Shown here one piece after another: positions 7,047 to 22,473 of a DNA stretch of 64,000 nt. Position 1 is the first letter of the stretch. Every line of letters starts with the position of its first letter. This DNA comes from Streptomyces umbrinus. GTDB lineage: Bacteria; Actinomycetota; Actinomycetes; Streptomycetales; Streptomycetaceae. Under the pieces are notes generated by a model. That model was given only the letters and a program-made list of their open reading frames with translations, did not search any database and was not told where the DNA came from. Position numbers and translations under genes: made by a program. Location: assembly GCF_030817415.1 (NCBI RefSeq), contig NZ_JAUSZI010000002.1:12127501-12191500 (forward strand), read 5' to 3'.

Positions 7047-7500
7047 CGAGGGCCTTCCGCAGGGTCTCGGCGGGCAGAGGCGGCTCGTCGAGGGTGGTGC
7101 GAGCGGCGTCCCAGTGTGCCGGAGTCGAGGCCGACAGCAGCACTTTTGAGACGCCGGGGCAGGACGCGACGGCCAGGAGGCAGGCTTGGGCGATGCTCAG
7201 CCGGGGGTGGAGCAGATCCGCGAGCTCGGCGGTGGCCAGGGCCGGCAGCCCTCCGCCGTGAAGGGGCGCGGAAGCGTGTACGTCCCATCCCCGGGCGGTG
7301 GCGTCGGCGATGGGTCCGCGCCCGTCGAGCGCTGCGGCGAGCGCCGAGTCCATCACGAGGCTGACCGGCAGCTGGATCGTCTTGAGATGGTGATGGGGGC
7401 TGCTGGCCGCCTCGGTGGCCAGGCGGTCGAGGTCGGCGACGGTGAACAGCCGCACTCGACCTGCCCCATGCGCTCGTGGAGTCGGTGACCATGCATGTTG
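7018..7500 (-). pseudogene. Aldo/keto reductase, C-terminal stump
   Basis: The recognisable part, from about 7455 down to 7018, matches the C-terminal half of an NADPH-dependent aldo/keto reductase: VSLVMDSALAAALDGRGPIADATARGW, then LSIAQACLLAVASCPGVSKVLLSASTPAHWDAAR and the final helix LPAETLRKALDVL. The N-terminal barrel with the Asp/Tyr/Lys/His tetrad is absent. The break lies near 7500, where an IS5-type transposase fragment begins on the other strand. It is non-functional as it stands, and its promoter is lost too. Confidence 0.72.
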
Positions 7501-7858
7501 TCACCCGTGAGGGGGGACCGGCGCTGCAGGCTCCGCCCGTCCCAGCGCGCGATGGTGGCACTGGTGTACCTGCGCGAACACACGACCCTGGCGAAGATCG
7601 CTGCCGGGTTCGGGATCAGCGAGTCCACCGCCCACACCTACACCAGCGCGGTCATCCACCTGCTCGCCGAACGTGCGCCGGGTCTGCTGAAGGTCCTGCG
7701 CGTGGCCGACGCGGACTTCGTCCTGCTGAACGGCACTCTCGCCGAGTGCGACCGGGTCGGCGACGGGCGGGCCGACTACTCGGCCAAGCACCGCCGGCAC
7801 GGGGTCAACGTGCAAGTGGTCACCGATCCGGGCGGCCGGTTGCTGTGGCTCTCTCGAC
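7495..7858 (+). pseudogene. IS5-type transposase fragment (different from the 5052 IS)
   Basis: About 120 residues of a DDE_Tnp_4-type transposase: [34 protein letters not shown] (HTH), [18 protein letters not shown] and [26 protein letters not shown]. The first catalytic Asp position reads Asn (LLNGT), which suggests decay. Homology stops at about 7858 inside the core, where a hydrolase sequence begins in another frame. The stump is therefore cut at both ends. Confidence 0.78.
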
Positions 7859-8734
7859 GGGGAGCGGCGCGCGCACTCCAGCAACTACCGATTCGGCCGC
7901 GTCGACCTGTGGGTACGCGACATCCGCCAGGTCATCGACGACGCGATCGCGCGGGCCAGGCCGACGGACGGCAAGGTCACGTTGATCGGCTACTCGCTCG
8001 GCGGGCAGCACGTCGGCCGGACCTTGTACGCGGCCAACCCGGTGCTTCCCGGCAGCGCCGCCGTCATCGCGAAGGTCAACCGTGCCGTGTTCGCGTCATC
8101 GATCTTCGGCACGCCGACCGAGGAAGTGACACCGGCGGCGGGCTTCACGTCCTTTCCGACGAACCTCAACACCCGGTCGGACAGCGACGGAGCCTGGGCC
8201 ATGGCTCCTGATCGGGACGCTGCCTGCACGGGCCACGTCGTCCCGGGCAGTCAGAATCAGATGTGGACGCGGCTCATGGAGGAAGACCGCCTCGGCAGCA
8301 GGTGGGGAGGCAACGACCCCGACCATCCGACCGGCGTCCTGCGCTCGCAGACCTTTTCCAGCTACGGCTGGAACGCCACCATCGCGCAGCAGCAGACCAC
8401 ACCCTCGCTCGTCATCGACGGCCTCGATGACAGGACACCGCTCGCGACACCGGCCGACTCAAGGGCCCTCTACAACAGCCTTGGCACAGCGAACAAGGTG
8501 CTGGTGCAGGTGCAGTGCGCGAGCCACGCGATGCTGTGGGAGGGCTGCTCCGGTCCGCGCTGCACTCCGCAATCGGGAACGCCTTACGGCGGACGCCCCG
8601 GCCGCCCCTGGTCCGGCCCCCATGCCACCGCCCAGGCCGCGGTGGCAGAGTGGATCAAGAAAGGCACCTTCAACGGCGCGGCGAACGGACATTTCACTGT
8701 CGACGAAAGCGGCGTGGCGAACCCCTCTCCGTGA
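7859..8734 (+). pseudogene. Lipase-like alpha/beta hydrolase lacking its N-terminus
   Basis: The frame beginning at 7859 ([20 protein letters not shown]) runs to TGA at 8734 and keeps a full catalytic set: nucleophile Ser in [12 protein letters not shown], acid in LVIDGLDDRTPLATP and His in VQCASHAMLWEG. Secreted Streptomyces lipases of this type have a further 80-100 N-terminal residues with a signal peptide. These are missing because an IS fragment is fused at 7858. A GTG at 7982 could start translation internally but would drop the first strands. Confidence 0.75.
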
Positions 8735-10385: not shown

Positions 10386-10730
10386 ACCTGTCCCTTCGAG
10401 TGCCTCGTACCAGAGCAGGGCCTCGTTCCGGTCGGAGGTCGACCACACCGGCTCGATCGGCGGGCCGACGTCGGCGAGCACCTCCAGGAGGACCTGGCGC
10501 CGCTCCGAGTACGGACGCGGCCGCAGGTCGGGCAGGCCCGCCGCAGGAAGGGCCAGGACGTCGATCGCGACGTACGTCGCAGGGCGCCGGTCGGTGAGCT
10601 CCCGGGCCCGGCGGGCTTGGAGAGGGCGCGGGACTGCGCGGTCTCGAAGCTGATCCGAGCACGGCCGTCGTCGTCGGCGACGTAGACCACGGCCTCGCCG
10701 TCCAGGATCACGCCGGGCGGAAGGTGCCTG
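10386..10730 (-). pseudogene. ATP-dependent DNA ligase, middle segment (3' part of split gene)
   Basis: Reads RHLPPGVILDGEAVVYV...RISFE, the conserved VLDGEAVV region of bacterial ATP-dependent DNA ligases. A one-base frameshift near 10618 follows, then ELTDRRPATYVAIDVLALP...ERRQVLLEVLADVGPPIEPV...LLWYEALEGT in the next frame. The text stops at about 10386, so the C-terminal OB fold is lost. At 10730 it joins, exactly in frame, to the upstream segment at 22355 (see the 11.6-kb element). This is the downstream half of one disrupted gene. Confidence 0.82.
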
Positions 10731-11048
10731 TTCTCTGGGGTTCTGGGCTGTGGCGTTAGTGAGTGGTTCACGTTGGTGCAGCTCAGCGCCATTGATCGGG
10801 AGTCTAGCCACTGCGACAGGTGTGGTGCGTCGCCTAAAGGGGCTGTTGGGCGGCCATCTCGTTGACGAGGCTGCTGTGGAGCCCGGCTGGCGCTGCGGGG
10901 CCGTGCGCCGGGCTGTCGCCGGGCGGTTCGCATCATGGCGAGGGTGACCAGTTCGGCCGCGAGGGTGTTCACGCCATAAGACGATCTTGGACACCCTCAT
11001 TCTCGTCTCCGCAGGCACCCCTTGGACCACCCCACCCAGGAGGAACCA
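10731..11048. other. Left end region of the 11.6-kb element, no clear gene
   Basis: 318 bp from the element end to the first cargo gene. The minus strand has an open stretch (NTLAAELVTLAMMRTARRQP...) of unusual composition that I cannot assign. It may hold recombinase binding sites. A good ribosome site (AGGAGG, about 11038-11043) precedes the GTG at 11049. Confidence 0.4.
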
Positions 11049-11438
11049 GTGTCATACCCGCAACCGCTCACCCCCGAGGAGAAACTCGCCGACGCGAAGA
11101 AGCAGCTGAGCCTCCCACGTATCGTCGTGATCTGCGGCTCCACCCGTTTCATGGCCGAGATGACCGAGGCTGATCTGCGGGAGACCAAAGCCGGAAAGAT
11201 TGTCGTCAAGCCGGGTTGCGACATGAAGTCGCCGCACGAATTTTGGTCCGATCCTGTCGAGGCCGAGGCGCTGAAGGTTCGACTCGACGATCTGCACCGA
11301 GCGAAGATCCGGCTCGCTGATGAGGTGCTCGTAGTCGGCGACTACATCGGAGACAGCACCCGAGCCGAAATCGCCTACGCCCGGTCGCTGGGCAAGCCCG
11401 TGCGGTTCACGCACCCCGAAGTCGACCCCGACGCCTGA
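11049..11438 (+). CDS. Nucleoside 2-deoxyribosyltransferase-like / Rossmann-type small protein
   Basis: 129-aa cytoplasmic protein. It opens with PRIVVICGSTRFMAEMTEADLRE and closes with IRLADEVLVVGDYIGDSTRAEIAYARSLGKPVRF. This pattern (GSTRF near the first strand, ADEVLVVG, STxxEIxYAxxxGKPV) is typical of nucleoside deoxyribosyltransferase and related DRHyd-fold proteins. The substrate cannot be read from sequence. Start GTG 11049 is chosen because AGGAGG lies 5-7 nt upstream; an upstream in-frame ATG (11022) lacks a site. It is the first gene of the element's cargo and stands alone, with a 60-bp gap to the convergent WYL gene. Confidence 0.65.
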   Translation: MSYPQPLTPEEKLADAKKQLSLPRIVVICGSTRFMAEMTEADLRETKAGKIVVKPGCDMKSPHEFWSDPVEAEALKVRLDDLHRAKIRLADEVLVVGDYIGDSTRAEIAYARSLGKPVRFTHPEVDPDA

Positions 11439-11497
11439 CCACCCACCCCCACACCCTCCGCAGGCACCCGTTGGAATCGATCATCTGGTGTTGCGGG

Positions 11498-12463
11498 TCA
11501 GGACGTTGGTGACGGCGCATAGTGGTGGGCAAGGTTGGTGGCGAGGTCGCTGAGGTGAGCCCTGGCTTCGGTGGGGCCGTGCACAGTGATGGCGCTCCCG
11601 AACGGCAGTAGTGCTCGCACGTCCTCCAGATGCAGGAAGCGGATCGTTACCTTGTGGCCGGTGGCGGATGCCTCATGGTCGTCCCAGACGAGTCGTTGGC
11701 CGAAGATCCGTCGGGCTCGCTCGATCTGGGTTTGGTCGATGGTGGCGCTGATCTCTATCGCGTGGTTGTGTTCCCACTGATCAATGAGCGCTGCAGCGAC
11801 GGTGGCCAGGGTCTGGTTCTCGCGGATCCGTCGTGGCTGGTCGACTTCTTGCCACGTCGTGATCCGTTCGAGTCGGTACATCCGTGGCACTTGGGCACGG
11901 TCGGCGACGAGGTACCAGATGCCGGCCTTGGCCAACAGCCCGTAGGGATCCACGACCAGGTCGCGCGGGCATGACTCGCGTGGGCTGTCGTACTCGATCC
12001 GCATCCGGCGACCTCGCCGCACTGAGCCGATCAGCGAAGCCGGAGTCGTGCCGAAGGCTCGTGTCTGGAGCCAGGGGCGGCTGTCCACGTGCACCACGTC
12101 GGTGAGCGGCAGGAGCTCATGAACTCGACGTGGCTGTGCGGCGGCGATCTTGGCGAGCGCGCGCCGGCTCTCGACGGATCCGTCGAGTTCCGCACGTTGC
12201 TTCTCGTCCAGCCCGGTGAGCGACAGCTGATCACGCTCGCCCGGTGTGAGTCGCGTGAGGTCGAGTCTGGATCCGGGCGGCATGGTCACGCCTCCGAGGC
12301 GGCCCCGCTGTGCGGTCACCGGCAGACCGGCGTCGCGGAGCCAGTTCAGATCCCGGGTGATGGTGCGAAGGGACACCCCGAGCGCCGAGGCGAGTTCCTG
12401 CGTGGTCACGGCGTCCCTCGATGTGAGGAGCAGCATCAGGGTGAAGAAGCGATCTGGGGTCAC
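11498..12463 (-). CDS. WYL-domain transcriptional regulator (YafY/DeoR-like)
   Basis: 321-aa regulator. Residues 1-60 form a winged HTH_11 (RFFTLMLLLTSRDAVTTQELASALGVSLRTITRDLNWLRDAG). Residues 135-215 are the WYL domain (RRMRIEYDSPRESCPRDLVVDPYGLLAKAGIWYLVADRA), which in other proteins senses nucleotides or other ligands. A C-terminal WCX-like extension follows. It is divergent from the FAD-oxidoreductase/ABC exporter operon that starts 134 bp away and is the best candidate for its regulator. This is the usual layout in which a WYL protein controls a neighbouring transporter or enzyme. Confidence 0.9.
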   Translation of the reverse strand: MTPDRFFTLMLLLTSRDAVTTQELASALGVSLRTITRDLNWLRDAGLPVTAQRGRLGGVTMPPGSRLDLTRLTPGERDQLSLTGLDEKQRAELDGSVESRRALAKIAAAQPRRVHELLPLTDVVHVDSRPWLQTRAFGTTPASLIGSVRRGRRMRIEYDSPRESCPRDLVVDPYGLLAKAGIWYLVADRAQVPRMYRLERITTWQEVDQPRRIRENQTLATVAAALIDQWEHNHAIEISATIDQTQIERARRIFGQRLVWDDHEASATGHKVTIRFLHLEDVRALLPFGSAITVHGPTEARAHLSDLATNLAHHYAPSPTS

Positions 12464-12596
12464 ACACCCGATCTTTCCAGGAATTGCGACACGATGCGGC
12501 GCATATCCCGGTCAGGCTGGTGGCTGCGCACCTACGACCTGCCTGTTCGCCGAGTGGGTGCGCGCACGCACCCGCCGATCCAGAAAGGTGCTCGCG

Positions 12597-13922
12597 ATGA
12601 GTGCCAACACGACCGACGCCGAATCACCGGTGGCGTACCACCCAGGGTCTGCCGAGTACGACGAGCACCGTGCCGGCTTCCAGTTGCGGGAGCAACATCG
12701 GCCGGCCCACGTGGTGGCGGCACGGGATGCCGACGACGTCGTGGCGGCCGTCCGGCACGCCGCGGAGGCAAGTATGCCGATCGCGGTCCAGGCCGCAGGA
12801 CATGGACTCGCCAACCCGCTCGCCGGTGAAGGTGTATTGGTGTCGACGCGAAGGATGGACAACGTCGATGTCGACCCCGGCGCCGGCACCGCACGGGTGG
12901 GCGCTGGAGCGCGGTGGCGCGACGTGATCGAGGCCGCCGCACGCTACGATCTGGCACCGCTGTCTGGGAGCATGCCCGGTGTCGGCGCTGTCTCCTACAC
13001 GCTCGGCGGCGGCATCGGGCTCATGGCTCGTCGCTACGGCTTCGCCGCGGACCATGTCACGCGCTTGGAACTGGTCACCGCCGACGGCTCCCTGCTGACG
13101 GTTTCGGAACACGAGGAGCCGGACCTGTTCTGGGCGCTCCGCGGCGGTGGCGGGAGCTTCGGCATTGTGACCGCGCTGGAGATGGCCTTGATGCCGGTCG
13201 CCAGGCTGGTCGGGGGCGGTCTGATGTTCGACCTGGGCGAGACGCCGGAGGTGGCCTCAACCTGGTTGCATTGGACGGCGACAATGCCCCCGGAGATGAC
13301 CTCGGCGATGACCACGCTTGAAGTTTCCAAGCGGCACATGGCCCATGTCCAGATCGCCTACCTGGGTTCGGCTGCGGAGGCAGACGAGTTGGTGGCCCCG
13401 TTGCGGGCGTTGAAGCCTGCATACGACGGTTTGCGGGAGATCCCGTACCGGCGGTCCGACACCGTCTTCAGCGAACCGGATCAGCCGCATGCGTATGTCG
13501 CCGACAATGTCTTGTTGCGGGCGATCGACGAGGAACGCCTCCGCGACGCCATCGCCACGTCGGCGCCAGGCCGGTCGGTTCCCTCCATCATTTCGGTTCG
13601 TCATCTCGGTGGGGCGCTGTCCACTCCGCCGAGGGTGCCGAACGCAGTCAGCCACCGCGAGGCGATGTACCTGCTGTGTGTCGTAGGTGTGGTAGCCCCG
13701 ACAACCAAGTCGAACGCGGCAAGTGCGCGGGCGCTGCAGGATGAACTGTTGGCCGGCTGGTCCGGGACCGCGGTAGGCAGCTCGCCGAACTTCACTCTCG
13801 GACGACCCGACCAACGCGCCGTCGCAGAACTGTTCGACGCCGAGCGTCGTGACCGATTGCTGCAGCTGGCCCGTAAGTATGACCCCGCCGGACTGTTGCA
13901 CCCCAGCTTCGTCATCGCCTGA
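12597..13922 (+). CDS. FAD-linked oxidoreductase (berberine-bridge / PCMH type)
   Basis: 441-aa flavoenzyme. An FAD_binding_4 domain (about 35-200) is followed by the substrate domain and a C-terminal BBE motif (RLLQLARKYDPAGLLHPSF). His69 in VQAAGHGLA is at the usual 8-alpha-histidyl FAD position. The second, cysteinyl anchor seen in bicovalent members is absent (GSMPGVGAVSYTLGGGIGL has no Cys), so monocovalent attachment is likely. Relatives oxidise sugars, alkaloids, polyketides or drugs; mitomycin-resistance McrA is in this family. ATG 12597 is preceded by AGAAAGG. It is 24 bp from the ABC exporter genes, so it may modify the compound they export. Confidence 0.88.
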   Translation: MSANTTDAESPVAYHPGSAEYDEHRAGFQLREQHRPAHVVAARDADDVVAAVRHAAEASMPIAVQAAGHGLANPLAGEGVLVSTRRMDNVDVDPGAGTARVGAGARWRDVIEAAARYDLAPLSGSMPGVGAVSYTLGGGIGLMARRYGFAADHVTRLELVTADGSLLTVSEHEEPDLFWALRGGGGSFGIVTALEMALMPVARLVGGGLMFDLGETPEVASTWLHWTATMPPEMTSAMTTLEVSKRHMAHVQIAYLGSAAEADELVAPLRALKPAYDGLREIPYRRSDTVFSEPDQPHAYVADNVLLRAIDEERLRDAIATSAPGRSVPSIISVRHLGGALSTPPRVPNAVSHREAMYLLCVVGVVAPTTKSNAASARALQDELLAGWSGTAVGSSPNFTLGRPDQRAVAELFDAERRDRLLQLARKYDPAGLLHPSFVIA

Positions 13923-13946
13923 GCACCTCCCACGAAAGGTTGACCG

Positions 13947-15674
13947 ATGCGGCTGGTCCTTGCTCAGTTCGCCAAGCACCGATGGTGGTTCGCTGGCCTG
14001 ATCGTCTTCCAGTTGGTCAGCGTCACCGCCACCTTGTATCTGCCGACGATCAATGCGGATCTGATCGACAACGGCCTACTGCGCACAGACGTCGGGCACA
14101 TCTGGACGGCCGGCGGGTGGATGGTGGTCGTCAGTATCGTCCAGTTGCTGGCAGCGGCGATCTCGTCCTATGCCGGAACGCGCGCGGCCACAAACGCTGC
14201 GCACGACCTGCGGTCAGACGTCTACGACAAGATCGCGACTTTCTCCAGCCGGGAACATCAGGACTTCGGCACGCCGACGCTGATCACTCGCAGCACCGAC
14301 GACGTGCAGCAAGTACAAGCGTTTCTGCTCACCCTCGGCACAGTGGCGGCCGCCGCACCGATCACGATGCTGGGTGGGGCCTATATGGCGTTGCGTGCGG
14401 ATGCTGGCCTGTCCCTTCTCATCGTCGTGGCAGTCGTCGTACTGGGTGTGGCGTTGGCGGTGATCCTTCGCTGGATGACGCGGGTGTCGCGCCGGATGCA
14501 GGACCGGCTGGATGCGATCAACCGGGTCTTGCGCGAGCAGTTGATGGGTCTCACGGTGATTCGCGCGTTCACCCGCGAGCGCTTCGAGGCCGAGCGGTTC
14601 GGGCAGGTGAACAACGAGCTGGCGGTGGCAACCCGGTCAATGGGGCTGCTGAACGGGACGTTCGTTCCGGCCGTCATGCTGATCACCGATCTGTCGATCT
14701 TGGCCGTGGTGTGGTTCGGTGGCCACCGGGTCGAGTCGGGACATCTGCTGATCGGCGGTCTGACAGCCTACGTCACCTACTTGGGCCTGATCCTCGGGGC
14801 AGCCATGATGGCCGCCTCGGCGGTGATGATGTTGCCAAGAGTGATGGTCGCGGCGGAACGTATTCAGGCGGTGCTCAACTCCACGCCTATGCTCCGGCCA
14901 TCGGGCGTACCCGCCAGGTCGGTCCCGATTCGCGGTGAGTTGGAGCTGCGCGGCGTTGCGCTGCGGTACCCGGGCGCCGATGCTGACGTCCTGGCCGGCA
15001 TCGACCTACGGGTTGAGCCCGGCGGCACGGTGGCGATCGTCGGATCGATGGGTGCTGGCAAGACCACCCTGCTGTCGATCGTCGCGAGACTTCAGGACGC
15101 GACATCCGGATCCGTCCGGCTGGACGGCGTTGATCTGCGCACCATCGATCCCACTGTGCTGCGCAGTCAGCTCGCGATCGTTCCGCAGCGTTCGCTGCTT
15201 TTCAGAGGTACGGTCGCAAGCAATCTGCGGCTGGCCAGGCCGGACGCCACTGACGCCGAGCTCTGGGAGGCGCTGGAGGTCGCGCAGGCTCGCGAGTTCG
15301 TCGCCGCGATGGACCACGGACTCGAGTCACCGATCGTCCAGGGTGGAACGAACGTCTCCGGCGGCCAGCGGCAACGGTTGTGCATTGCCCGCGCACTCGT
15401 TGCCGCCCCGCGGGTCTTCCTCCTTGACGATCCGGTCTCGGCGCTCGACTCCGAAACAGCCGCACGGCTACTGGCAGCGCTGCGCACAGCCACGGCCGAC
15501 GCGACAGTCCTACTGGTGTCGCAGCGGACTGCCGGTATCCGCAGTACCGAACGGATCGTGGTGCTCCACGAGGGCAGCATCGTCGGCGACGGGACACATC
15601 AATCACTGATGGAAAGCTGTCAGACGTACCAGGAGCTGGTGGCTTCGCAGGAAGCGATCGGGGCATTGTCATGA
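13947..15674 (+). CDS. ABC exporter half-transporter A (type IV, degenerate ATPase site)
   Basis: 575 aa: six-helix ABC membrane domain (about 1-310) fused to an ATPase domain. Walker A is GSMGAGKTT, Q-loop region VPQRSLLFRGTVASNLRLA, signature NVSGGQRQR and Walker B VFLLDDPVSALDSE. The residue after the Walker B Asp is Asp rather than catalytic Glu, as in the degenerate site of heterodimeric exporters. The H-loop His also appears replaced (LLVSQRT). It overlaps the partner gene by ATGA at 15671-15674. Substrate unknown; with the oxidoreductase and WYL regulator it looks like a drug or metabolite efflux unit. Confidence 0.92.
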   Translation: MRLVLAQFAKHRWWFAGLIVFQLVSVTATLYLPTINADLIDNGLLRTDVGHIWTAGGWMVVVSIVQLLAAAISSYAGTRAATNAAHDLRSDVYDKIATFSSREHQDFGTPTLITRSTDDVQQVQAFLLTLGTVAAAAPITMLGGAYMALRADAGLSLLIVVAVVVLGVALAVILRWMTRVSRRMQDRLDAINRVLREQLMGLTVIRAFTRERFEAERFGQVNNELAVATRSMGLLNGTFVPAVMLITDLSILAVVWFGGHRVESGHLLIGGLTAYVTYLGLILGAAMMAASAVMMLPRVMVAAERIQAVLNSTPMLRPSGVPARSVPIRGELELRGVALRYPGADADVLAGIDLRVEPGGTVAIVGSMGAGKTTLLSIVARLQDATSGSVRLDGVDLRTIDPTVLRSQLAIVPQRSLLFRGTVASNLRLARPDATDAELWEALEVAQAREFVAAMDHGLESPIVQGGTNVSGGQRQRLCIARALVAAPRVFLLDDPVSALDSETAARLLAALRTATADATVLLVSQRTAGIRSTERIVVLHEGSIVGDGTHQSLMESCQTYQELVASQEAIGALS

Positions 15675-17599
15675 GCCGCCGGGAGCGTGGTCAGCTCGAA
15701 GACGGCGCGAGCGTCGCCGCAACGTCGCGCCGACTGGCAGGCCTGTTCCGGCAAGTCCGGATGTCGGTGATCGGTTCGCTCGCTCTGGCTGTGTTCGGCG
15801 TACTGGCCTACCTGGTCGGCCCGCGGATCTGGGGCCGTGCGATCGACGCGGTGTTGGCCGGCACCCTGGGCGCCGGTTTGCCAACAGGACAAACTAAAGA
15901 GGCTGCCGCGCAGGCGCTGCGCGACAGCGGCCGAAACAGCTTCGCGGACATTATCGAGAGGCTGAACGTCACGCCCGGGTCCGGCATCGACTTCGGTTAT
16001 GTAGGACATCTACTGCTGATAGCCGCCGGCCTATATAGCCTCGGCACCCTGGCGGGATTCGGCCAGCAGTATATCCAGAACAGCGCGATCGCTCGCGTCA
16101 TGCAAACTCTGCGTACCGACGTTGAGGCGAAGCTCAATCGGCTTCCGGTCCGCTACCTCAACGGCTCTTCACGCGGCGAGCTGCTGTCACGGATGACCAA
16201 CGACATCGATAACATCGCGACCTCGCTCAGCCAGACGCTGACCCAGTTGTTCTTCGGTCTGCTCACTGTCGTCGGCGCACTGGCCATGATGCTGAGCATC
16301 TCACCCCTGCTGACACTGCTTGCGTTGATCTCGATACCGCTGACCTTCGCTATTGGGGCCGTGATGGCGAAACGAAGCCAACGGCTGTTCGGCGACCAGT
16401 GGCGACTGACCGGAGAACTCAACGCGCATATCGAGGAGTCCTACTCCGGCCACGAACTCGTCACCGTGTTTGACCGCGGAGGCGTGTTCCGCGAGACGTT
16501 CGCGAACAGGAACGCCGAGGTGAAGAAGGCGAGCCATCTCGCGCAGTTCGTGTCCGGCCTGATCGCCCCGCTGGTGCTGTTCATCGGAAACCTGAGTTAC
16601 GTCCTGCTCTGCGTCGTCGGTGCCTTCAGCGTGATCAGTGGGCAGCTGACCCTGGGCGGAGTCGTTGCGTTCGTCCAGTACTCGAGACAGTACTCACAGC
16701 CACTCGGAATGCTCGCCTCGATGTCCAACCTGTTCCAGTCGGGTATCGCGTCGGCTGCCCGCGTGTTCGCCCTTCTCGACGAGCCGGAGGAGGACCCTGG
16801 TAGCCAGGGACGGCTGCCGGTCGTTCGGCCGCGCCGGATCACGTTCGAGCAGGTGTCGTTCGGCTACGACCGCGAGCTGACCATCAAGGACCTCGACCTG
16901 GTCGTCGAGCCGGGGCGGACAGCGGCGATCGTCGGCGCGTCGGGCGCCGGGAAGACGACTCTGATGAACCTGCTGATGCGGTTCTACGACGTTGGCAGTG
17001 GACACATCCTCGTCGACGGCACAGACATCACCTCGGTGTCACGGGACGCGTTGCGCTCCGAGATCGGGTTCGTTCCTCAAGAGCCGTGGCTGTTCGGCGG
17101 GACCATTCGCGACAACATCGCCTACGGGCGGCCGGATGCCACACTTGAGCAGGTCGAGCAGGCCGCTCAGGCCTGTGGTGTCAGCCACATCGTGAACGCT
17201 CTCCCACAGGGCTACGACACGGTGGTTGACACTGTGGACGGTCGCCTGAGCGAGGGCGAGCGACAGCTGATTTGCATCGCGCGCGCGTTCATCGCTGATC
17301 CAGCCGTGCTGATCCTCGATGAGGCCACCAGTGCGGTTGATGCCCGCACCGAGTTCCTTCTGCAACGGGCGACCTCGCGGCTGCGGCATGGCCGCACATG
17401 CCTGGTGATCGCCCATCGGCTCTCCACCATCCGCGACGCCGACGTCATCGTCGTACTGCAGGACGGTCGGATCGTGGAGAAGGGAACGCACACGCAGCTA
17501 TTGCGAGCCGGCGGTGCGTATCACCGGCTCAGTCAGTACCAGTTTCACGAGCCGAGCGCCTTGCCAGCGCTGGACCCCGACCAGCATTCGTCGCTATGA
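15671..17599 (+). CDS. ABC exporter half-transporter B (catalytic ATPase)
   Basis: 642 aa. It has a membrane domain with a longer first extracytoplasmic loop (about 55-110, GSGIDFGYVGHLL) and an ATPase domain: Walker A GASGAGKTT, Q-loop VPQEPWLFGGTIRDNIAYG, Walker B VLILDEATSAVDART with catalytic Glu, H-loop CLVIAHRLSTIRDAD. The signature is RLSEGERQL instead of LSGGQ. In a heterodimer this deviant signature faces the degenerate Walker B of partner A, which gives one weak and one active ATP site, as in BmrCD or TM287/288. It is translationally coupled to partner A. Confidence 0.92.
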   Translation: MSRRERGQLEDGASVAATSRRLAGLFRQVRMSVIGSLALAVFGVLAYLVGPRIWGRAIDAVLAGTLGAGLPTGQTKEAAAQALRDSGRNSFADIIERLNVTPGSGIDFGYVGHLLLIAAGLYSLGTLAGFGQQYIQNSAIARVMQTLRTDVEAKLNRLPVRYLNGSSRGELLSRMTNDIDNIATSLSQTLTQLFFGLLTVVGALAMMLSISPLLTLLALISIPLTFAIGAVMAKRSQRLFGDQWRLTGELNAHIEESYSGHELVTVFDRGGVFRETFANRNAEVKKASHLAQFVSGLIAPLVLFIGNLSYVLLCVVGAFSVISGQLTLGGVVAFVQYSRQYSQPLGMLASMSNLFQSGIASAARVFALLDEPEEDPGSQGRLPVVRPRRITFEQVSFGYDRELTIKDLDLVVEPGRTAAIVGASGAGKTTLMNLLMRFYDVGSGHILVDGTDITSVSRDALRSEIGFVPQEPWLFGGTIRDNIAYGRPDATLEQVEQAAQACGVSHIVNALPQGYDTVVDTVDGRLSEGERQLICIARAFIADPAVLILDEATSAVDARTEFLLQRATSRLRHGRTCLVIAHRLSTIRDADVIVVLQDGRIVEKGTHTQLLRAGGAYHRLSQYQFHEPSALPALDPDQHSSL

Positions 17600-17646
17600 G
17601 GAGTTCGCAGTGAGACTCGACCTGCCGAGGTTCTTCGCCCCCCGTC

Positions 17647-17754
17647 CGGTTCGTCGCCAAGGCTCTCAGCCGCTGGGGCCACATTCTGCTGCCGCTGGTG
17701 CTGATCGCGATCGGTCTGCTCATCCTGATCGAGGGCGGGGCCTTCGGGGTGTAG
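17647..17754 (+). pseudogene. C-terminal remnant of a CadD-like transporter
   Basis: The frame ending at TAG 17752-17754 reads ALSRWGHILLPLVLIAIGLLILIEGGAFGV, the last membrane helix of CadD-family cadmium/cation transporters. Everything upstream is missing; the preceding text belongs to another frame. Its 3' end overlaps the tnpC stop. It was presumably a cargo gene eroded next to the transposition genes. Confidence 0.6.
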
Positions 17755-18286
17755 GCGGGCCGGTTCCCTCCGGCGTGTGGTTCAGCGCCCGGGTCAGTTC
17801 ACGGTTGGCGGCGCGTGCAGCGTCCAGTTCCTCGGTTCGTTCGTCCAACTGTCCTTGCACGTAGGCGAGTTGTTGTTCCAGTTCGGTGATACGGCGCTGA
17901 AGCTGGTCGAGGTCGGCCGGGGCACCGAGGCCGGATTCGGTCCAGACCGTCGTGCCCAGCTCCTCGGGCAGCCGCTTTTCCAACTGCCGGACGCGTGCCG
18001 TCAGCCGGGCGTTGCGTTCCAGGGCGTTGGCGAGGTCGGTTTGGAGCGAGGCTCTGCTCACGGCTGCTGTTCTGCCTGCCTCGGCAGGGGTGGTTGCCGC
18101 GGCGTGGGCGCGTTCGAGCAGGTCGCGGTGGCGATAGAGGAAGGTGCGGTCGACACGGGCGGTGCGGGCGAGGCCGGACACAGTGATGTTCTGACCGCTG
18201 CGCAGGGCCGCATCCAGGGCCTGGAGGACGCGTTCGCGACGGCGGGCGGAGTCGGCTCGTTTGCCCTCGATCATCGGGCTGGTCAC
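17720..18286 (-). CDS. tnpC: TnpC-like protein (DUF6262) of the Tn554-type unit
   Basis: 188-aa accessory protein of tyrosine-recombinase transposons. An N-terminal basic HTH-like part (RRRERVLQALDAALRSGQNITVSGLARTARVDRTFLYRHRDL) is followed by a long heptad coiled coil (SLQTDLANALERNARLTARVRQLEKRL, LDQLQRRITELEQQLAYVQGQLDERTEELDAARAANREL). In Tn554, TnpC affects orientation and efficiency of transposition without being a recombinase. Start GTG 18286 overlaps the tnpB stop as GTGA, so it is coupled to tnpB. Confidence 0.8.
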   Translation of the reverse strand: MTSPMIEGKRADSARRRERVLQALDAALRSGQNITVSGLARTARVDRTFLYRHRDLLERAHAAATTPAEAGRTAAVSRASLQTDLANALERNARLTARVRQLEKRLPEELGTTVWTESGLGAPADLDQLQRRITELEQQLAYVQGQLDERTEELDAARAANRELTRALNHTPEGTGPPTPRRPRPRSG

Positions 18287-18342
18287 GCGGTGGGCCTTTC
18301 GGGACGTAGGTCGGGCAGGGGCTGACGGACTCTGGGCAGGCC

Positions 18343-18634
18343 TGTCGCCGTTCGCATGAAAGTGCACCGGCCGGTACGCGCGAACGTGCACAGCGCGCCG
18401 TACTCCACAGCGCCGGGGCCACCCGCCAGCCAGCCACCCCCGGGACGGACACCGCCGTCAAGGGTGGGGCGGAGCCCCATCGCAGGGCGACGCCCGTAGG
18501 GCGCCCTTGACGGCGGTGTCCGTCCCGCATCCTGACGAGTCGGGTGGCCCCGGCGCCCCCACCAGCCTGAAGAGCCAGGCGAGCGGTGCACTTTGAGTTG
18601 TACCGAGCGGTGCACGTTCGGGTGTACGCCGACA
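18343..18634. mobile_element. 292-bp MITE-like element inside tnpB
   Basis: AGGCC occurs immediately on each side (18338-18342 and 18635-18639), a 5-bp target duplication. The ends are 35-bp inverted repeats (18343-18377 and 18600-18634, 27 of 35 matching, both starting TGTCG and ending CGGTAC). Removing one repeat plus the element deletes 297 bp, restores VSLGLPRVRQPLPDL at the TnpB end and keeps the frame. It encodes nothing of its own, though the tnpB frame stays open through it. It must be moved by a transposase elsewhere; the 5-bp duplication and TIR length recall Tn3-derived miniature elements, but the TGTCG ends differ. Confidence 0.82.
18410..18556. repeat. Nested palindromes in the centre of the MITE-like element
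   Basis: Outer arms of 15 bp (GCGCCGGGGCCACCC at 18410-18424; complement at 18542-18556) enclose perfect 23-bp arms (18442-18464 and 18504-18526). The 39-nt loop holds a further small hairpin (TGGGGCGGAGCCCCA, 18465-18479) and GGGCGACGCCC. The whole element could fold into one long branched cruciform or RNA structure. Confidence 0.85.
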
Positions 18635-21058
18635 AGGCCGAGAGAGACGACCTGGCGGGTGCGGCGGACGACCTGGACGGCTTGCTGGATCTGGGCGCGG
18701 TCCTCGTCGGGGAGCTCATCGACGTCGGCGCGGACGCGGCTGATGAGGCGACGGACGCGGGTGATCTCCTCGTCGGACGGCATGGCCTCGCCCTTGGCCC
18801 AGTCATCGGCGCTGAAGGCGGCCAGGCGTTCGCGGCTGCGCAGCAGGTCGGTGAGGTAGGACTCCAGGTCGGGTAGATAGGAGACGTCGGTGCGGAAGTG
18901 GCCGCAGCCCACGCAGCGGAAACGGACGGGGCAGTCGTGGCCGCCGGCGGCGACGTTGGACGGCTCGGTGCACAATCCGTAGGGAACGGCGACCTCGCCG
19001 ACCGCCCGCCGCGCGTGCTCGGAGTCCAGGACGAGTTGGGCCTGGCGCCAGATCCGGCGGCCGTGCCGGTCGAACTGCATGGCCGTGACTCGCTCGACGG
19101 CCTCCCGCCGTCGTTGCTGGCCCACCCGGTAATAGCCCTGTGTCGTGCTGAGCTGGCGGTGGTCCATCAACTCCTTGAGCACGTCGGGTCCGACGCCGGC
19201 GTCGGCGTGCCGCTGGGCGTAGCTGTGCCGGTAGGCGTAGAGGAAGACGCGGGCCTTATCGAAAGGGATCTGCTGGTTTGTGCGCCGCCCGTCGGTTTCC
19301 ACAACGACGTTGACGTAGAGGTCGGGCAGTCCGTTGACCCAGGTGCGGTGCCACTGGGCGAGCAGGTCCTCGCTGATCGTCTTGACGCCGTGGGGGTTTC
19401 GCATCTGCGTGGGCAGCAGCGCCAGGTCCTTCGTGGGAGTATTCGGGAAGCGCCGTCGCACGGTCTCCTGCTGCCGGGTGATCAGCGCGGCGGTCGCCGC
19501 GGCGATGGGCAGGCGCCTTCGCAGGCGGTGGGACTTGTAGTTGTCGTAGATGAGGACGGGCTGGCCGTCTTCATCGGCATCGAGGCAGTCCCAGCGCAGA
19601 TAGCTGACCTCCTGGGACCGGCGCCCCGTATCGATGATCAGTTCCACCGCGATCCTGATGTGCGGGGGCGCGATGGCATCGAGCGCGTCCAGCTGGGAGC
19701 AGAGCTGCCGCATGACCTCCTGGGGGAGGTCCTTGCCGGCCTCGGAATCCTCTGCCTCGTCGGGATGTCCTCTTCTCTGAGGACCACGTCACCGGGCAGC
19801 CCGTCCAGCGGCTGGCCGGGGCCGGTCAGCCCCAGGGAACGCATGCGGCGCAGGACCTGACGGAACTTGGTGATCCGCTTGTAGCGGCCGTCCGCGGACA
19901 AGGCGCCCTCCTGCTGCAGGAACGCCTGCCGGTGGAGAAAGGCGACGATGTCCGACCGGCCCAGGCGCCGGGGGTCCATCCCGTGATCGTCCCGCTGCAG
20001 CCGAAGGCTCTCCGAGAACTTCGCCAGGTTCTTGATGCCGCCTTGGACCGTGGTGTGCGCGCTTGCCGCGGCGTTGCGGGAGTTCTTCAACCGCCCATGC
20101 CTTCGCCGCTTCACGCAGCCAGGGCTGGCTGATGTCACTGAACCGGAGGTGACCTCCCATCCCGAAGACCACCAAGTCCCAGATGTCCTTGAGGCGTTCA
20201 GTCTCCGGCGTCGCGCCGAGCCGGTCGATGCTGGTCGTGAACGTGGCCACCAGCTGGCACTGCAGCCGGGTCAGGCCCGCGAGGTCGATCTCGGTGATCG
20301 ATCCGACCTGCTGGCGGCGGGCCGTGTCACACAAGGGCCTGAGCGAGTGGTCCTTGGTCTTGGCCCCGGACCGGGTCCGCTCCTGCAGACCAAAAATGAT
20401 CTCTGCGACCAGTAGTTCGGGCAGACCGCGCAGGTTGATCTCGCCGGTGATCGTGACCGGGCTCGTAGTCCTGCGCCAGGTCTCCTCGTCGGCCACGCGG
20501 CCGTTGCGCGTCTCGACGCTGAGCCGGTTGCGGTGGGCCATGCAGTACGGGGTGCGCTCGTAGTCCTTCTCCCGGTCGCAGGCCAACACCTGGCAGATCC
20601 CGAACGACGGCAGTGCGACCACACCCGGCCGCCGTACGAAGTCCAGGATCGACAGCCCGCTGACCCGCTGCTGATGCAGATGCGCGTAGCAGAACGGTTC
20701 CTGGCGCTCTTGCAGGGCCGCGGGCAGTCGCGAACGCAGCAGGCGTCCTTGCCGACGCAGCGCCAGGTCCGTTTCGCCGTGGCCAGAAACTCCTCGACTG
20801 GCACCCCGGAGGCTTGCCAGTGGAAGTCGCAGGTGTCGCACAGACCGTGGGCCATGGCGAACTTGAACGACGTCTTGCGGCAGCCCTCCACCCGGCAGGC
20901 CACCCCGCCGAGCTGAACATGATCCTTCGGGAAGATCAGCCGGCCCACGGCCGGATCCCACTGCATCAGCTGTAGGAACGACGGCTCGATGGCCTCCCGC
21001 ACCAGCCGCAACCGCAGACTGCGGCCTTCCTCGACCTGAGCCGGCACCACCAGGAGGC

Positions 21059-22225
21059 TCATCGCGCGCCGTCCTCGCCGAAGGCCAGCCGAGGTGAGGG
21101 GACACGCTCAACGGCGTTGCGCAGACGCTCCCGCCCCGGGTGCAGGTAGGGCCGCGACGATTCCGGGTGCTTCTGCCCCAGCAGGGCCTGCACCTCATCC
21201 AGCGTGCCGCCCGAGTCCACGACGTTGCTGGCCATCGCATGCCGGCACATCCGCGGCGTCACCCGGCGCCCGAGACCGGCCCGCGCGGACAGCGACTCGC
21301 ACGGCTCCCCGATCGCCTCCGCACTCACCGGCGCCCCAAACGGCGGGCGGAACAGGTTGACCAGCAGGAAGTCGCTGCCACCTGCCTCCAGCACGGCGTG
21401 GCGTTCCACCGCATAGAGGTCGAAGGCGCGCACCACGAGGAAATCCACCGGCATCACCCACGACTTCTTCGACTTCGACCAGGCGTTGTTCTCGTTCTGC
21501 CGCCGCACCACATGGACGTGAGCGCCCTCGATGTCGCACCCCAGCGACCGCGAGTCCGCCATCAGGTGCAGGTCACTGCGGTGCAGTCCCGCCGTCTGCC
21601 CCGGCCGCAGTCCCACCCGGGCGAGCAACAGCAGCGTCAACCGGTCCCGTGCCGAACGGCAGGACCGGAACATCGCGACGACCTCCTCGTCGCTGGCCCG
21701 GTCCACTTCGCTCTCCGGCTCCTGGAGCCGATGCCGGGCGCGCAGCCGGTAACGCAGCCCGCCGCTCTCACCCCTGGCCTCCACCGGCAGGTCGCGATCG
21801 TCGCCGAGCTCGTAGACCTGCTCCAGCACCCAGGCCGGCGCCTCCTTGTTGACCACGGCGTGGACCAGGAACATCCGAACCGCCGTGAGCACCTTGTTGA
21901 TCCGGCCGTCGCCCCGCACCGGCCGGGCTCCCGGGCCCGGAACGACCGTCCGGCGCTGGCCGCCATTCCCCGAAGTCCAGCCCAGCCAGATCATGAACAG
22001 TCCCATGTCGCGGGCGGCGGTCCGCCAGTCCCGACCGGTCCTGTCACACCAGCGCAGGAACAACGAGAGGCCCTCCGCATACGCCTTCGTCGTCGTCTCC
22101 GCCCGCCCCCGCGCCAGCCGAGTCTCGCTCAGGAAGCGATCGGGGGCCTCAACCACCCGTACCGCGTCGTCCATTACCGTCCAGTACCGGACACCTGAGG
22201 GCATCCGGACAGGAAAAGCACGCAC
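21059..22225 (-). CDS. tnpA: TnpA-like tyrosine recombinase
   Basis: First gene of the Tn554-like transposition unit, 388 aa from GTG 22225. An earlier in-frame start at 22276 is possible, but the added residues look non-native. An N-terminal SAM-like core-binding domain (TTTKAYAEGLSLFLRWCDRTG) precedes the catalytic domain: Arg in LLLARVGLRPGQTAG, MCRHAMASN, then LGQKHPESSRPYLHP with the Tyr nucleophile. It breaks and rejoins DNA at the element ends through a covalent phosphotyrosine. It is near the right element end and overlaps tnpB by ATGA. Confidence 0.85.
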   Translation of the reverse strand: MRAFPVRMPSGVRYWTVMDDAVRVVEAPDRFLSETRLARGRAETTTKAYAEGLSLFLRWCDRTGRDWRTAARDMGLFMIWLGWTSGNGGQRRTVVPGPGARPVRGDGRINKVLTAVRMFLVHAVVNKEAPAWVLEQVYELGDDRDLPVEARGESGGLRYRLRARHRLQEPESEVDRASDEEVVAMFRSCRSARDRLTLLLLARVGLRPGQTAGLHRSDLHLMADSRSLGCDIEGAHVHVVRRQNENNAWSKSKKSWVMPVDFLVVRAFDLYAVERHAVLEAGGSDFLLVNLFRPPFGAPVSAEAIGEPCESLSARAGLGRRVTPRMCRHAMASNVVDSGGTLDEVQALLGQKHPESSRPYLHPGRERLRNAVERVPSPRLAFGEDGAR

Positions 22226-22354
22226 TTGTACCCCTGCTCCACGAGTCGACCGCAACGATTCACCGCAGAGCCACACCCCCTGAGAACCGCTGCCGCACCT
22301 TCAACGAGGGCACGGCGTACGACGTCACACCACGCTCAGAGAACCCCCAGAGAA

Positions 22355-22473
22355 TGCATGGCGGCCACGGCCAGGTCCATCCAGAGCGCGGTGACGTCGC
22401 GGCCGGTCCGCGACTGCAGCCGGACGCTGTCCTCGGCTCGCCACAGCACGGTCCGGTGGCCATCGACCTTCGG
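22355..22473 (-). pseudogene. ATP-dependent DNA ligase, upstream segment (5' part of split gene)
   Basis: The minus strand reads PKVDGHRTVLWRAEDSVRLQSRTGRDVTALWMDLAVAAMH, matching the nucleotidyltransferase region around the catalytic KVDG lysine of ATP-dependent DNA ligases. It is cut at 22473 (TAA follows immediately upstream), so the first part of the gene is lost. At 22355 it meets the 11.6-kb element. Fused to 10730 it continues in frame into RHLPPGVILDGEAVV. Confidence 0.82.

Follow-up and report, generated by a model that had tools for sequence, protein, structure and literature searches.

A Tn554-type tyrosine-recombinase element inserted in a DNA ligase gene of Streptomyces umbrinus, with a hexamer core on each side

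What separates the two pieces of a ligase gene in Streptomyces umbrinus by 11.6 kb, how did it get there, and what does it carry? We addressed this question in a 64,000-nucleotide stretch of assembly GCF_030817415.1 (contig NZ_JAUSZI010000002.1, positions 12,127,501 to 12,191,500), hereafter the window, which is part of a 12.4-Mb genome and lies on a contig of 12.29 Mb, at ~100-165 kb from one of the contig's ends. An earlier sequence-only reading had placed a Tn554-like, site-targeted and cargo-bearing element at window positions 10731-22354. The element is genuine, and we are confident, taking the explanation as a whole, that it is a Tn554-type tyrosine-recombinase transposon of Streptomyces residing in a DNA ligase gene; the tnpA-tnpB-tnpC set, the cores at its borders and the repeated use of ligase and Ku sites by it and its relatives support this assignment.

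The extent proposed for the element, 11,624 bp with boundaries at 10730/10731 and 22354/22355, is borne out on both sides by ends shared with relatives, and comparison with other loci likewise upheld the short inverted ends, with TTCTCTGGGG at both termini. The left terminus opens TTCTCTGGGGTTCT, and the right terminus, read inward, opens TTCTCTGGGGGTTCT. With the last 154 bp of the element as query (right end, 22201-22354, minus strand, closing CCCCCAGAGAA), alignments reached the final base at 27 distinct flanks, the window and 26 others, including L003, for which only 2 bp of flank are available; in two further elements the alignment fell short, at base 147 (L018, L025 and L049, one element) and base 151 (L031). 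The left end (10731-10829, plus strand, opening TTCTCTGGGG) is alignable over ~99 bp at 12 other loci, excluding matches to the window's own stretches, at ten of them from base 1 or 2 and at L034 and L048 only from base 20, the weakest match having an E value of 0.023. Both ends and their flanks are visible in eight relatives of ~4.5-10.3 kb each (L004, L005, L006, L009, L013, L044, L045 and L048). We also considered an ordinary DDE transposon, or illegitimate recombination that split the ligase by chance. A related element does contain a Tn3-type transposase fragment, and a DDE transposase fragment lies near the window element, but the ends conserved at 27 flanks, the 6-bp core that is foreign on one side in two relatives, and the two tyrosine recombinases inside the element leave these explanations a negligible chance; a DDE transposon is ruled out by the 27 shared right-end flanks and the lack of any DDE gene among the open reading frames (ORFs) scanned inside.

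Ligase pieces flank the element on both sides, as had been claimed: the 3' part at 10386-10730 (minus strand; identified by blastn to ligase alleles of other genomes), whose last six plus-strand bases are the tnpA-distal core, and the 5' part at 22355-22473 (minus strand; identified by comparison with empty alleles). The ligase, as the sequence-only reading had not noted, is just a decayed fragment of ~0.46 kb, and the name ATP-dependent DNA ligase comes only from the relatives L053 and L059 (PF01068), a 34-aa piece of the window's own ligase having no Pfam match. Ligase matches were found in 15 of the 392 genomes searched (the window's own included), at 18 places, six of which are readable across the site. 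All six (L051, L052, L053, L056, L057 and L059) are unoccupied, with similar flanks and one hexamer each: CGCATG and CTCATG twice, CGCATC and CGCAGG once. At least one of these alleles, in L059, is itself a fragment, with a 101-aa open frame. The window, by comparison, has TGCCTG before the element (10725-10730) and TGCATG after it (22355-22360). Base 4 is A in all six empty alleles and C in the distal TGCCTG, which is absent from this position in every empty allele and was probably imported from a previous site; TGCATG is nearer than the distal core to each of the six by one base, though identical to none, and is probably the target's own.

These alleles correct the junction as it had been described. 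The joined ligase frame is indeed open, and remains so because the six extra bases amount to two codons, six being divisible by three; however, the same join had been said to contain no duplicated base, and the empty alleles, with a single hexamer, do not match a joined sequence with two and rule out a clean join without duplication. The argument for a Tn554-type element from a missing target duplication was therefore wrong in detail, and the corrected junction, in which each side has a 6-bp core, agrees better with the mechanism of Tn554 and of the elements known as SE than a missing duplication does. In another genome (L054), ~1.1 kb of different DNA occupies the same ligase region, from ~20 bp off this insertion site.

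Across the nine complete elements, including that of the window, 44 of 54 positions are the same in the left and right hexamers, compared with a mean of 23.1 when partners were shuffled, a value as high as 44 arising in 2 of 100,000 shuffles. The pairs are identical in L004, L006, L013 and L045, match at four or five of six positions in the window, L005, L009 and L048, and at two of six in L044. In two relatives, empty alleles tell the two cores apart. L009 interrupts dprA (PF02481 in its empty relative L105), a site with matches in 178 of 199 genomes; at the best 15 places, one of which is the occupied site itself, the 14 empty alleles read CGCCGC (7), CGCGGC (6) and CGCTGC (1), so that the tnpA-side core of L009, CGCCGC, is present in 7 of 14 and its far-side core, CCTCGC, in none. 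For the L005 target, seven places were matched and three are readable as empty (CCCGAC in two, CCCGGC in one); the tnpA-side core, CCCGAC, is thus found in two of the three and the far-side core, CCCAGC, in none. In both relatives, the native core is on the tnpA side and the far-side core is foreign, the same arrangement as reported for SEs and Tn554-related elements, where six bases from the former site end up recombinase-distal and the target's own are kept proximal (PMC10214605; here and below, articles are cited from excerpts), and an "att-brought-in" arrangement with 7 bp has been described (PMC12486829). The window's cores probably lean the same way, with the native core on the tnpA side. 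Insertion would have occurred through strand exchange by a tyrosine recombinase across a 6-bp core within the ligase gene: the element would leave its old site as a circle carrying the 6 bp that adjoin its tnpA end, and upon insertion these would come to lie at the far side, while the 6 bp native to the target would remain on the tnpA side.

The reuse of individual positions points to site-specific insertion, one Ku position being occupied in L004, L044 and L045, and one ligase core in both the window and L002 (S. massasporeus JCM 4139). The tnpABC genes of L002 are 93-94% identical to those of the window, and its right end abuts the same ligase core, but L002 is inverted relative to the window element, its right end being next to the ligase part that in the window adjoins the left end. 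In the six other insertions with an identified target (L002, L004, L009, L013, L044 and L045), the interrupted gene and the element, read from left to right, run the same way, unlike in the window, where the ligase reads in the opposite direction; TnpC of Tn554 is reported to affect orientation (PMC3414803). Targets are identified at 7 of the 27 flanks, namely, Ku (L044 and L045 by Pfam, L004 by alignment), ligase (the window and L002), dnaE (L013, by PF07733) and dprA (L009). Three of the 20 remaining flanks look, by eye, like ABC transporter ends, and the L005, L006 and L035 flanks share one gene without a Pfam match (L097). A Pfam scan of ten flank ORFs recognized Ku in L044 and L045, NUDIX in L017 and none in the other seven, the L009 and L013 targets having been named from other pieces. 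A bias toward repair genes is at this point a lead, drawn from 7 of 27 flanks. TnpA relatives were detected by tblastn in 186 plasmid records, 61 from Streptomyces and 31 from Rhodococcus, and a same-genus genome (G093) has the same element and flank as the L009 locus of Streptomyces sp. WAC 01529.

Several relatives have contents of their own. The element that splits a Ku gene in L045 (8534-14117) also encodes Ku itself, in a second and complete gene (12830-13957) that shares 35-49% identity with the interrupted copy; a search for Ku and ligase only found neither inside the other eight complete elements, the window's included. A comparable "target-gene-like" gene inside an element has been described (PMC12486829). 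A same-family element in L006 (14235-16403) has terpene synthase and polyprenyl synthetase genes, possibly a mobile two-gene terpene pathway; the Ku-inserted element of L004 (14447-20190) encodes a phosphotransferase (APH), an amidase and a TetR regulator along with a Tn3-type transposase fragment; and that of L005 (14357-18703) includes a 1449-aa open frame of WD40 repeats.

The recombination genes of the window element form one set at one end, and all three are recognizable, as the sequence-only reading had stated. The tnpA gene (21059-22276, minus strand; PF00589, E 5.9e-13) is an open frame for a 405-aa tyrosine recombinase in which Tyr377 is invariant in an alignment with 20 relatives. 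It overlaps tnpB (18635-21062, minus strand), with no gene in between; tnpB, identified by tblastn with intact relatives and by its C-terminal integrase motif (PF00589), encodes the long tyrosine recombinase and is broken into four frame segments, a feature not noted earlier. The third gene, tnpC (17720-18391, minus strand), encodes a DUF6262 protein (PF19776, 36.8 bits against a cut-off of 29), with the part conserved in L002 and others inside 17777-18342; among 14 control genomes, DUF6262 appeared only in Lactococcus lactis, below cut-off. Next to tnpC lies a 292-bp miniature insert (18343-18634), absent from L002, with TGTCG...CGACA inverted ends and 5-bp AGGCC flanking repeats. This insert is an imperfect inverted repeat over its whole length, and it was ruled out as a repeated element of the genome, having been found at one place only.

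The state of tnpB bears on whether this copy can still move. The gene is single-frame in 15 of 19 relatives examined, and has two segments in L002, L015, L016 and L043. L043 (10200-14460; contig C2 near 106 kb, near the other contig end) contains the one further close tnpB that this genome has, at ~108 kb, which belongs to a second, diverged tnpABC set (69%) and is also split, into two frames; a third, weak match (26% identity) lies on C2 near 162 kb. With tnpB broken in the window and its one other close copy in this genome broken as well, the window element is probably stranded, and judging by its genes it is probably immobile on its own. Programmed frameshifting could in principle keep such a tnpB functional, and frame changes do recur in L002, the second own-genome copy, L015 and L016; nevertheless, the single frame in most relatives, break points that differ among copies and the four segments in the window make this highly unlikely.

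How does the element compare with known systems? Like the Tn554 family of Staphylococcus and Enterococcus (PMC10214605, PMC12486829), it combines a tnpA-tnpB-tnpC set and imperfect inverted ends with target specificity and a 6-7 bp core, the far-side core being the donor's in two relatives and probably so here, but it differs in its Streptomyces host, in the several target genes of its relatives, in its orientation opposite to a near twin at one core, in its broken tnpB and in its cargo of an oxidase and an ATP-binding cassette (ABC) exporter. With SEs, the element and its relatives have in common the 6-bp spacer rule and inverted termini (PMC10214605), but SEs have four genes, intA, tfp, intB and srap, with tfp between the recombinases, whereas tnpA and tnpB overlap here. 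Several tyrosine recombinases are also found in GInt and RIT elements, which in the excerpted descriptions have three recombinase genes (plus ginD in GInt), compared with two and tnpC among the ORFs scanned here. By its genes, the element falls in the class of the Tn554-related transposons of actinobacteria defined in 2012, which occur in Streptomyces and relatives and have a long and a short tyrosine recombinase and, in most cases, a TnpC-like third gene (PMC3414803). The class is thus already known, if not much studied, and to call the element an undescribed actinobacterial transposon was too strong; however, the excerpted text of that study does not map ends, cores, empty sites or targets. 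Among open-licence articles on Tn554 with Streptomyces or Actinobacteria, titles and abstract openings mention no mapped ends or cores of Streptomyces elements, and the best matches of two further literature searches did not mention tnpABC (tnpABC, Streptomyces and tyrosine recombinase) or DUF6262 (Tn554 or DUF6262 since 2019).

Several observations weigh against this interpretation. The Tn554 assignment was made by gene set, ends and core rather than by comparison with Tn554's own proteins, and TnpA, by eye, has Arg at position 342, where the HxxR motif usually begins with His. The ligase alleles used to judge the window's native core are 77-85% identical in their left flanks, and neither window hexamer is found among the six. 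The contig of L002 does not reach the element's left end, leaving only one core visible. At the Ku site of L044, where ten empty alleles were read and are highly variable in the core, the far-side CATGGC is the core of one empty allele (L079), and the tnpA-side CGGAGG is that of none. The same 11.6-kb unit, which the sequence-only reading had suggested seeking at another site, has no twin in the plasmid records or other genomes searched, and a near-identical unit in public plasmids was ruled out, 0 of 41 matching records covering 80% of the query. Finally, a drug-resistance role for the cargo is read from protein family alone.

From the left, the element consists of a 138-aa ORF, a WYL regulator on the minus strand, a flavin adenine dinucleotide (FAD)-linked oxidoreductase, two ABC half-exporters, a Cad-type remnant, tnpC, the 292-bp insert, the broken tnpB and tnpA. 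The domains of the regulator (11498-12463, minus strand; PF13280, E 3.8e-15, and HTH_11), the oxidoreductase (12597-13922, plus strand; PF01565) and the two half-exporters (13947-15674 and 15671-17599, plus strand; both PF00664 and PF00005, the second with a match of 619 bits to 8wcw_B) were all found, in open frames, in agreement with the earlier annotation of a WYL regulator, FAD-linked oxidoreductase and heterodimeric exporter. The half-exporter frames overlap at 15671-15674; by eye, the first protein has degenerate catalytic motifs and the second a canonical Walker B, giving one degenerate and one canonical nucleotide site, as is the case in heterodimeric exporters. A CadD remnant had also been proposed, and the match is weak (17629-17751, plus strand; PF03596, E 0.022, under cut-off).

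The best PDB match of the FAD enzyme is 9r43, the mitomycin radical oxidase McrA (289 bits over residues 13-438 of 441), a moderate similarity. This enzyme re-oxidises the hydroquinone form of mitomycin to the quinone (PMC9570651). Unlike McrA, the FAD enzyme here is linked to an ABC exporter and also resembles BagK/FevA1 and EncM. The passenger, a regulated FAD oxidase with a two-subunit ABC exporter, would by its protein families most likely protect against a natural product of the quinone type or one of similar redox activity, and drug resistance is a plausible role. Alternatively, oxidase and exporter might be a biosynthetic tailoring and export pair, given the resemblance to EncM and to the bagremycin/ferroverdin oxygenase BagK/FevA1 (best NCBIfam model, NF041226, 365 bits, below its cut-off of 800); with no other biosynthetic gene recognized among the scanned ORFs of the element, and with the layout of a divergent regulator beside an oxidase-exporter operon, we regard this as rather unlikely.

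Of 391 other genomes, four have the FAD gene at 95-97% identity, and a Micromonospora protein matches the FAD enzyme along its whole length at 86% identity, so that this gene, at least, has crossed genera. In L073, L074 and L075, module parts are all that matches the window in the 20 kb read; tnpABC and ligase matches are absent there. In these three and in L042 (G143), the module starts at the same left border, 11483-11487, beside unrelated DNA. In the window, the right-hand border of the cargo, at 17628, interrupts the Cad-type gene at the point where homology to L002 begins. The oxidase-exporter module was probably added to an existing Tn554-like element. It could further be that a small tnpABC-plus-cad element entered the ligase and that the module (11483/11487-17628) recombined in later and has not moved since, a possibility to which we give a little less than even weight. 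Against it, L042 brings together, within ~6.5 kb at a different site, the 10881-11452 block, the greater part of the module and a 56-bp stretch spanning the right end, suggesting that the assembled unit existed elsewhere, although these pieces are rearranged, without tnpABC and without a recognized left end. Because module parts occur without tnpABC in four of the 391 genomes, resistance and movement of the whole unit are what we infer rather than observe. Cargo beside ligase fragments in many strains without tnpABC had been named in advance as a finding that would refute the sequence-only reading; module parts do lie outside tnpABC elements, yet none beside a ligase-flank match in the stretches read.

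At the left of the module, the 138-aa ORF (11022-11438), which has no Pfam match, lies in a plus-strand block (11007-11475) between 20-bp direct repeats (11007-11026 and 11456-11475), read by eye and 19/20 identical. This block is the matching part in 10 of 20 listed plasmid records (of 41), nine from Streptomyces and one from Nonomuraea. Outside the element, a transposase fragment upstream, at 7495-8211, matches HTH_Tnp_4, with DDE_Tnp_4 under cut-off.

With these findings, the actinobacterial Tn554-like class of 2012 acquires defined ends and unoccupied sites, together with a legible 6-bp record of where an element sat before, such that donor and target cores can be distinguished from sequence alone. 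They also place in a mobile setting an oxidase-exporter module that may serve self-protection, and the elements collected from soil bacteria allow the transposition route of Tn554 and SEs to be tested. More broadly, and tentatively, since we hold the full picture to be somewhat less probable than not, Streptomyces may host a Tn554-type family whose circles are marked by 6 bp of their last home and which repeatedly enters conserved codons of genes for DNA repair and processing (Ku, ligase, dprA and dnaE). Such elements would ferry natural-product resistance genes, and biosynthetic genes as well, between chromosomes and linear plasmids, with at least one element (L045) bringing along a spare copy of the gene it breaks, Ku.

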